The notes under the pieces were generated by a model that was given only the letters and a program-made list of their open reading frames with translations, made no database searches and had not been told where the DNA came from. From contig JAILRG010000132.1 of the NCBI GenBank assembly GCA_024698325.1, forward strand, positions 1 through 64,000: a DNA stretch of 64,000 nucleotides, given 5' to 3'. Below, piece after piece: positions 19,919 through 57,702 of this stretch. The position numbers were made by a program, and so were the translations under genes. This stretch comes from Treponema sp. Its GTDB lineage: Bacteria; Spirochaetota; Spirochaetia; Treponematales; Treponemataceae. Every line of letters begins with the position of its first letter. The stretch's first letter is position 1.

Positions 19919-21679
19919 CTATCTGCGGTACATCCGCTCTAAGGCGCCAAACTGCTCATCAAGATGATTTTCCACATCTTTAATCTGCTCTAATTTGTCG
20001 TTAGGCACTGTGGACTTAATGCGCACAATTTCTTCGCGCACTGGAAGCTCATGCACCTTAAGAAGCGGAGCGCCCAGCTTAATGACAGCAAGAGACCGCT
20101 CGTAGAACTGCATCATAAGGAGCAGAACCTGAATCTGCTTTTCCGGCACGCTGTACACGTCAACCGCGTCGAACGCACTCTGCTGCAAGAAGCCGTTTTT
20201 AATCATGTCAGCGACGGTAAGCACGAGACGCTCGGTGTCGGGAAGCGCATCCGGACCAATAAGGCGCACAATCTGCTGCAAGCGCTGTTCTTTTTTCAGA
20301 AGCTCCAGTGCAGAAAGACGAACCTGTGCCCAGCGGCCGTCAAGTTTATCCCACCATTCGCGGATTTCATCAGCATATTCTGAGTAGCTGTCAATCCAGC
20401 CGATTGCCGGATAGTGGCGCGCATTTGCCAATTCACGGTCGAGCGCCCAGAAACAGCGGATAAAGCGCTTGGTGTGCTGGGTAACCGGCTCCGAAAAGTC
20501 ACCGCCCGGAGGAGAGACCGCACCGATAACGCTGACAGAGCCTTCCTGCCCGTTTAGGCTCGTTACGCGGCCTGCGCGCTCGTAAAACTCGGCAAGGCGT
20601 GTCGGAAGGTATGCCGGGAAGCCTTCTTCTGCAGGCATCTCTTCCATACGGCCGCTAAGCTCGCGCAAAGCCTCTGCCCAGCGGGAAGTTGAGTCAGCCA
20701 TGATTGCGACATGCATTCCCATATCGCGGTAATATTCTGCAAGCGTAATGCCACTGTAAAGCGAAACTTCGCGCGCGGCGACCGGCATGTTCGATGTATT
20801 TGCAATCAGAATCGTTCGCTCCATAAGGGAGCGGCCGGTGCGCGGGTCAATCAATGTCGGGAACTCGGTCAAAACATCGGTCATCTCGTTACCGCGCTCA
20901 CCGCAGCCGATGTAGACAATCAGGTCCGCATCGCACCATTTTGCGATAGCGTGCTGCGTCATCGTCTTACCGGTGCCGAAGCCGCCAGGGATTGCAGCAG
21001 TTCCACCCTTAGAAAGCGGGAAAAACACGTCGATAACACGCTGACCGGTAATCAACGGCTCGCTAACCGTAAGTTTTTTTGCAAACGGACGCGGGCGGCG
21101 AAGCGGCCAGTAGTGACTGAGCTTTATGTCCTCGTCAAGTTCGGTCGTACCAATAACGTCGTCTACCGTGTAGCTTCCGGCGCCTTTCCAGGTTTTAAGC
21201 ACGCGCCCGCGCACTGTCGGCGGCACCATAATCGCATGCCGGATAGAAGCAGTCTCCTGCACGTAGCCCAGCACGATGCCCGGCGCAATCGCCATGCCTT
21301 CTTTTGTGCCGTCAGCAGGTTCAAGCTTCCACTGCTTTGTAACGTCAATCGGTTCAGTACGCTGTCCCGGATGCAGAAATGCACCGGACTGATTAAACAT
21401 CGTCTCAAGCGGGCGCTGAATGCCATCATAAATCGTGCCGACAAGTCCCGGCCCCAGACGAAGGCTAAGAGGCCGCTCGTAAGAAACGACTTCTTCGCCA
21501 ATGTGCATTCCGGTATCATCTTCGTATACCTGAATGGTTGCACTGCCCTTATTCTGGCGGATAATCTCGCCGATAAGCTTTTTATTGCCAACGTCCACAA
21601 CGTCGTACAGACCGCAGCCTTCGAGCCCTTCTGCATAGACAATCGGACCGGAAATGCGGGTAATTTTACCTGTTATCAT
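19919..21679 (-). CDS. atpA: V-type ATP synthase catalytic subunit A
   Basis: P-loop [36 protein letters not shown]. Confidence 0.97.
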
Positions 21680-56401: not shown

Positions 56402-57238
56402 TTAGCCAAGAAGCTCATTCTGAGTCTCTCTCTCCTGACGGCGTGCCATCAAGAGGCGGCGCATACGGCGAACAGCACGTAATTCCATCTGCCGGATAGT
56501 CTCTGCTGACACATCAAGCTCTATGCTCAGTTCGCGCAGAGTCTTAACGTGAAGCGCATGCTCAAAATTGTAGCGGCTAAAAATCACCGTACGTTCTGCC
56601 AGCGGTAGCGTGTCCAGAAGCGCGGTTACCTCATGCCGGGCTTCGTCCTGCAGATACAGCGTTTCGGGGCTGTATGCAGAATCCGGCAAGAGCTCGCCCA
56701 CCGTTACGTCTCCATCCTCAGAGCAAGGTGCGTCCAGGCTCGAAATAGAATAAGAGTATGCCATCAGTCCTTTCAGCTCACACTCATCCATATGCAGATA
56801 CTGCGCAATTTCCCTGCAGTCAGGCTCCCGCCCCAGCTTCTGCTTGAGAGAGGCCTGTGCCTTGCGAGCCTTCCGCAGCACTTCTTCCTTGCGGTGCGGA
56901 ATAGCAATCAGCGAAGTGCAGTTATACAGATAGCGCAGCATATACTGCATAATCCACGTATACGCATACGTAGAAAAACGGGTTTTAAATGAATAATGAT
57001 ATTTTTCCGCTGCAGTCATAAGTCCAAGATTTCCCTCCTGAACCAGATCCATGACAGAAACCTTATCGCAGCAGAAGCGCTTGGCAACGCTTACAACCAG
57101 GCGCAGATTACAACGAACCAGCTCGTCAAAAGCAGCCTTATCACCGGCTTCTATACGTTTTGAAAGAGCGGCCTCCTGCTCAGCTGTCAACAACGCATAC
57201 CGTTGTATTTCGCTCAGATAATTTTCGTACATTTCCAT
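56402..57238 (-). CDS. Sigma-70 family RNA polymerase sigma factor (group 2/3-like)
   Basis: Region 2 DKAAFDELVRCNLRLVVSVAKRF..DLVQEGNLGLMTAAEKYHYSFKTRFSTYAYTWIMQ; region 4 TLRELSIELDVSAETIRQMELRAVRRMRRLL. Confidence 0.93.
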   Translation of the reverse strand: MEMYENYLSEIQRYALLTAEQEAALSKRIEAGDKAAFDELVRCNLRLVVSVAKRFCCDKVSVMDLVQEGNLGLMTAAEKYHYSFKTRFSTYAYTWIMQYMLRYLYNCTSLIAIPHRKEEVLRKARKAQASLKQKLGREPDCREIAQYLHMDECELKGLMAYSYSISSLDAPCSEDGDVTVGELLPDSAYSPETLYLQDEARHEVTALLDTLPLAERTVIFSRYNFEHALHVKTLRELSIELDVSAETIRQMELRAVRRMRRLLMARRQERETQNELLG

Positions 57239-57279
57239 AACAGCCTCCATACGACGCCGTACTACGGCATGTATGAATA

Positions 57280-57296
57280 TGCAAAATGTATGCCAA
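57280..57296 (-). promoter_or_regulatory. Sigma-54 (-24/-12) type promoter upstream of the sigma factor gene
   Basis: Minus strand TTGGCATACATTTTGCA; GG-N10-GC spacing, close to YTGGCACG-N4-TTGCW. Confidence 0.7.
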
Positions 57297-57550
57297 CCTG
57301 TCATTTTAAAGGAATTAAAACAAGGATAAGTTTGAAGAGAATCTATAACCTTTTATAATACAAAAAAATGCAAATAATCATTATAATTATAACGCAAAAA
57401 AATGATATTTCAAGGAATCTGAAATATTTTTCCATCTGTGCACAATTGTATACAAACCAACCGTCTACTTTTATGCACAGACAGAATTATGACTGAGTCC
57501 CGCAAAACTTTTCCTCGTATCGCATTTTCCGGCACTAGTGCATCTTTGCC

Positions 57551-57579: not shown

Positions 57580-57606
57580 CTGCAATAACATTTAAGAAGG
57601 AGCAAT

Positions 57607-57702
57607 GATACTAAAAATGACATCCATGTCATTTTTAGTATCTGCAGTTTTGCTTGCGGCAAAACTGCGGTTCGTTGCATCCATGCAACGCCGCTAACGC
57701 GG
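57607..57702 (+). repeat. Serial hairpin leader upstream of thrH
   Basis: 57607-57642 perfect 17-bp arms around CC; 57644-57668 GCAGTTTTGC-TTGCG-GCAAAACTGC; 57673-57690 CGTTGCAT-CC-ATGCAACG; 57691-57702 CCGC-TAA-CGCGG. Confidence 0.92.

Follow-up and report, generated by a model that had tools for sequence, protein, structure and literature searches.

A probable sigma-54 promoter in front of an rpoS-like sigma factor gene in Treponema and its likely kinship with the Borrelia RpoN-RpoS cascade

Introduction

Is the gene for an alternative sigma-70-family sigma factor in this gut treponeme controlled by sigma-54, and does such an arrangement share its origin with the RpoN-RpoS cascade of Borrelia or merely resemble it? 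Work on this cascade has treated it as a pathway of Borrelia, bound up with the tick-mammal cycle. Direct RpoN control of Borrelia burgdorferi rpoS and the requirement for Rrp2 are established experimentally (PMC3037356, PMC4014564), and the status of Borrelia RpoS as a true RpoS is disputed (PMC6719511). In the literature that we searched, which left out most subscription papers, no study of a link from sigma-54 to a sigma-70 factor in treponemes was found. An initial annotation of the 64,000-nucleotide stretch analyzed here (the window) had proposed a sigma-54-type promoter directly before a sigma-70-family gene and an analogous Borrelia-like cascade. We followed up both proposals computationally.

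Results

A -24/-12 element precedes a divergent sigma factor gene

The features of the locus are as follows.

56402-57238, minus strand: sigma-70-family sigma factor of 278 aa, group A (domain matches, tree)
57244-57248, minus strand: Shine-Dalgarno sequence GGAGG (sequence)
57256-57268, minus strand: leader hairpin GCCGT-AGT-ACGGC (GCCGTAGTACGGC), weak (z about -1.8)
about 57269, minus strand: predicted transcription start, 12 nt past the C of GC, inferred from established sigma-54 promoter geometry
57280-57296, minus strand: -24/-12 (sigma-54) promoter element TTGGCATACATTTTGCA (sequence, rarity, position kept in genus orthologues)
57386-57413, minus strand: possible second promoter of sigma-70 type, TTGAAA-16-TATAAT (consensus match only, 11/12)
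57438-57453, minus strand: dyad copy GTATACAATTGTGCAC, 12/16, candidate activator-binding site without binding data
57463-57478, minus strand: dyad copy GTGCATAAAAGTAGAC, 12/16, candidate activator-binding site without binding data

The window protein contains Sigma70 regions 1.2, 2, 3 and 4 according to domain matches and scores far under the cut-offs of the named RpoD and RpoS (NCBIfam) and RpoH models, and is therefore considered a divergent alternative sigma factor. The program-made list of open reading frames opens the gene at 57304, yielding a longer frame that spans the promoter element. We place the real start at 57238 because orthologues keep MEMY/MKMY as their N terminus, with a Shine-Dalgarno sequence in front of it. 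Region 2.4 of the group A protein reads YAYTWIMQYM compared with YATWWIRQAI in RpoD. The positions altered in group A are those that read and melt the -10 element, and promoters recognized by group A should therefore differ from housekeeping ones. A match to TD-2 RNA (RF03162) is located between a HAD gene and the sigma gene (57604-57690, minus strand); at 43.0 bits it falls short of the gathering score, 48.7.

On the minus strand, GG at 57294-57293 and GC at 57282-57281 are separated by 10 bases (GG-N10-GC) and the surrounding TTGGCAC...TTGC context satisfies the sigma-54 promoter criterion. The distance from the element to the ATG is 42 bp. The predicted leader of the sigma transcript comprises 31 nt, includes GGAGG and ends at the ATG. 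The initial annotation had described a minus-strand 17-mer of this spacing closely matching the -24/-12 consensus, placed directly before a sigma-70-family gene, and both claims held. The geometry it gave, a start at about 57268 with a leader and then GGAGG, held as well, with our predicted start at about 57269, the leader opening at 57268-57256 and GGAGG at 57248-57244. Only some close orthologues have a leader hairpin: several form small, similar hairpins of differing sequence and others form none. A role as a generally conserved regulatory RNA was rejected because most orthologues fold no stable hairpin.

The element is rare in the genome and conserved across spirochaetes

Our own assembly is about 90% complete and genome-wide statements rest on pattern searches. 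The pattern TTGGCAYN5TTGCW has four matches in the whole 2.84-Mb assembly and its reversed form has none. Two matches lie within coding sequence (hisG and thrS, named from translations) and the remaining two, the only intergenic ones, each precede a different short sigma-70 gene. Weaker sites, in which the first T is lacking, proved mostly intragenic where they were examined. Within the window, TGGCAYRN4TTGCW has a single exact match, and nine matches when one mismatch is allowed, compared with 3.6 expected from shuffles. A further exact match to TGGCAYN5TTGCW, TGGCATTACGCTTGCA, is found in the window at 20738-20753 on the minus strand.

A close group A gene, that of the window included, is present in 23 of 59 genus genomes, with aligned orthologues 41-57% identical to the window protein. 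All 22 genus orthologues with an intact 5' end keep TTGGCA-N7-TGC upstream, with TTGGCA and TGC invariant and the spacing fixed. One close orthologue (L095) shows no motif. The motif is present at the locus of T. zioleckii (L094), a cultivable gut species. A scan of named genomes returned no relatives when the query was the window protein alone; an alignment used as query yielded 80 loci. The strict motif is located upstream of 85 of 113 spirochaete sigma genes, with no occurrence on the opposite strand, inside or downstream of the same 113 genes, and it is absent from all 32 relatives from outside the spirochaetes, most of which are cyanobacterial. A survey of 27 genomes gave 143 strict sites, 36 of which precede a sigma gene of group A or group B. 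As a positive control, the motif scan recovered Borrelia rpoS, a known sigma-54 target, with upstream sites such as TTGGCATGATTTTTGCA in five genomes of another family, which we take to be Borrelia from two sigma-70-type matches each and gene position. It is thus very likely that TTGGCATACATTTTGCA is a working -24/-12 promoter of the sigma gene, though promoter activity is inferred and no expression data or mapped start are available.

The second intergenic match in our genome belongs to a new feature, a second short sigma-70 gene (group B) under the same motif. It is located on contig C135 adjoining groES with the strict motif in front. Across the phylum, 18 group B genes were sampled, 11 with a strict and 4 with a relaxed motif.

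Sigma-54 and an Rrp2 orthologue are encoded in the genome

The initial annotation would have been refuted by a genome without rpoN or by a motif not conserved upstream of orthologues. Both were checked: the motif is conserved, as described above, and rpoN is present, with AID, CBD and DBD domains in one open reading frame on contig C134. In the genus, rpoN was found in 57 of 59 genomes. Our genome encodes three distinct AAA+ enhancer-binding proteins (C141; C45 joined with C86; C90). One is a response regulator adjoining a PAS histidine kinase, a GAF-type activator is split across contigs C86 and C45 (99% identical overlap), and in the C90 activator no DNA-binding domain was recognized. The single full activator of Borrelia finds its best match in our genome in the response regulator (55% identity over 449 aa). 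The response regulator beside the PAS histidine kinase is an Rrp2 orthologue; that it acts at this promoter is inferred, and two further activators exist. A 1.1-Mb treponeme (G107), which we take to be T. pallidum-like, keeps rpoN and an Rrp2-like activator, but our searches returned no sigma gene of either group A or group B.

Group A promoters carry an upstream dyad

When promoters of group A were stacked with their -24 elements in register, repeated 16-bp dyads resembling GTATAM-AAAA-KTATAC became apparent about 100-200 bp upstream. An exact palindrome search of the upstream DNA had returned no shared site, and only the degenerate dyad emerged on stacking. Matches of at least 12/16 to the reference consensus GTATACAAAAGTATAC are found in 92% of group A upstream regions compared with 9% of shuffles. 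This consensus was read from part of the tested set and the counts are somewhat inflated. The stronger evidence is positional clustering outside the genus, where 73% of other spirochaete members score at least 12/16, mostly 94-112 bp upstream of the motif, together with a within-locus control in which 27.8 kb of upstream DNA contains 31 matches of at least 14/16 and the remaining 291 kb of locus DNA contains 2. The dyad is missing from group B promoters and from Borrelia. Its position fits an enhancer, and it is likely bound by an activator or by an auxiliary regulator, the binding protein itself being inferred. Neither the dyad nor the second sigma paralogue was part of the initial annotation.

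The sigma-70-type box at 57386-57413 lies upstream of the sigma-54 site, about 150 nt 5' of the ATG, and several close orthologues show a similar TGYGTTATAAT box. It could serve for basal transcription or be driven by the sigma factor itself.

The window protein and Borrelia RpoS belong to one clade

A tree of 121 rows joins the window group and Borrelia RpoS with many spirochaete sigma factors in a single clade (support 100/99) that excludes E. coli RpoS, RpoD and RpoH as well as cyanobacterial sigma factors. A 48-row tree recovers the same spirochaete clade (100/99.3), and on it an AU test rejects a topology that unites the RpoS proteins of Borrelia and E. coli (p-AU 2.7e-5). Long branches leading to Borrelia and to a sister genus call for caution. 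The trees agree with the reported view that BB0771 did not arise from the duplication that made proteobacterial RpoS (PMC6719511). The well-supported clade with Borrelia RpoS, together with the Rrp2 orthologue, makes it likely that the two cascades are homologous rather than merely analogous. The Borrelia-like cascade of the initial annotation is thus supported, and the evidence points beyond the analogy it had suggested to probable homology.

The B. burgdorferi Rrp2-RpoN-RpoS system (RpoS, BB0771; Rrp2, BB0763) resembles the treponeme locus in having a sigma-54 promoter before a short sigma-70 factor, the two factors belong to one clade, and an Rrp2 orthologue (55% identity) and sigma-54 are common to both. 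In a comparison that leaves BosR-type sites (TAAATTAAAT repeats) aside, the treponeme differs from Borrelia in having a further, distinct sigma-70 paralogue with this motif in front, a dyad conserved upstream, and three activators where Borrelia has one. Gamma-proteobacterial RpoS, a group 2 sigma factor, is similar to the window protein in length and in regions 1.2 to 4, but reads YATWWIRQ in region 2.4 compared with YAYTWIMQYM and falls outside the clade of the spirochaete proteins (AU p 2.7e-5). In our scan, E. coli rpoH, likewise a sigma-70-family (heat-shock) sigma gene, also has a -24/-12-like element, CTGGCACAGTTGTTGCT, upstream. A sigma-54-dependent promoter (P6) of rpoH is known; the product of the gene belongs to another sigma subfamily, and the gene also has several further promoters.

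Sigma-54 motifs precede stress genes and a -24 element differs in a sister genus

Further strict sites in the genus stand in front of hsp20 genes, of rpoN itself and of genes of an orphan family (family C). In closed 2.8-Mb genomes of the sister genus, which we take to be probably the T. denticola group, sites precede clpB, dps, peroxiredoxin, hsp20 and family C genes (named from translations). The stress-gene and rpoN sites are those of loci L180, L182, L186, L188, L191, L316, L318, L322 and L340. Because motifs precede hsp20, clpB, dps, peroxiredoxin and rpoN in the two genera, a stress programme or candidate stress regulon is suggested, as an inference from gene content. Family C consists of orphan proteins of about 300-350 aa in 55 of 59 genus genomes, and most sampled members have the motif just upstream (L266-L295). 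The member in our genome is located near flagellin (contig C74, L086:1858-2751). The family shows weak Sigma70_r2 or C-terminal helix-turn-helix signals. Membership of the sigma factors was considered and found poorly supported: only 1 of 20 members matches Sigma70_r2, and weakly, and a sigma fold was unconvincing in comparison with group A and solved structures.

In the sister genus, both sigma promoters read TTAGCA...TTGC in place of TTGGCA (L204, L205, L206, L207, L210) and the RpoN box reads AVRTVNKYR, with an R to V change (L296-L298). The other RpoN boxes sampled are ARRTVAKYR, ARRTVNKYR or S/ARRTV variants with both arginines kept. The hsp20 sites of the sister genus still read TTGGCA, and the -24 shift is therefore incomplete. 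The -24 element and the RpoN box may have co-evolved in this lineage.

Discussion

We propose that a signal would act through a histidine kinase on an activator bound upstream, the signal step being inferred. Sigma-54 RNA polymerase, containing the rpoN product, would sit closed at 57280-57296 until an AAA+ enhancer-binding protein melts the promoter. The transcript starting near 57269 would then encode the short group-2-like sigma factor, which may redirect core polymerase to a second gene set, an inferred downstream regulon. In this view, the sigma gene corresponds in treponemes to Borrelia rpoS, and the gene, its promoter and an Rrp2-type activator were all passed down from a spirochaete ancestor that the two lineages share. 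The motif and its conservation, the gene family, and the presence of rpoN and an Rrp2 orthologue are shown by computation. The explanation as a whole, a sigma-54 promoter within a cascade of common ancestry, is very likely, with promoter activity, activator, dyad binder and regulon being inferred.

Several alternatives must be weighed against it. A motif that arose by chance, or that is bound by something other than sigma-54, can be all but ruled out. A single 17-mer in a 64-kb window would be weak evidence alone, but the strict motif was found 0 times among 113 genes in each of three matched controls, the Borrelia positive control was recovered, and changes in the -24 element and the RpoN box coincide in the sister genus. 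A real element in a cascade that arose independently in Borrelia and treponemes is improbable. The long branch of Borrelia RpoS, a Borrelia promoter without the dyad and the use of BosR at Borrelia rpoS (PMC3037356) favor such an origin. Against it stand the single clade of Borrelia RpoS and the window group (100/99), the motif on nearly all branches of this clade across the phylum and the Rrp2 orthologue common to both. We also consider it unlikely that main transcription starts from the sigma-70-type box with the sigma-54 site as a minor or fallback promoter. The box matches TTGAAA-16-TATAAT at 11 of 12 positions and similar boxes are found in some close orthologues, but it is unrecognizable in most orthologues as opposed to the invariant -24/-12 site, and both promoters may coexist.

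A further alternative concerns the dyad only, which might bind a repressor or auxiliary factor, as BosR does in Borrelia, instead of an enhancer-binding protein. The dyad is specific to group A and does not occur at group B promoters, even though sigma-54 activators presumably act on both, and symmetric GTATAC half-sites recall one-component regulators. On the other hand, the dyad outside the genus lies about 100-110 bp upstream of the -24 element, a typical enhancer position (100-150 bp upstream, PMC3037356). We consider this alternative a serious contender that falls slightly short of an even chance.

The preferred reading of common ancestry permits a bolder version, in which sigma-54 is an ancestral spirochaete master switch over a tier of sigma-70 factors. 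The tier would include the rpoS-like sigma factor, the second, RpoD-like sigma factor, possibly a third orphan sigma-like protein, stress genes and rpoN, with a dedicated dyad for the rpoS-like gene and a -24 element and RpoN box that changed together in one lineage. The Borrelia cascade would then be a reduced remnant of a spirochaete network. Taken jointly, these claims have our support by only a small margin.

The sequence evidence, computational throughout, indicates that a cascade of the Borrelia type is likely spirochaete-wide and ancient. If it is ancestral to spirochaetes, it probably began as a general stress programme before being redirected in Borrelia, and the dispute over the naming of RpoS would be answered by a separate spirochaete family. 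The coinciding -24 and RpoN box changes, if they reflect true co-evolution, would represent a rare natural case at a normally near-invariant GG. Treponemes, for their part, gain a testable sigma-54 regulon.
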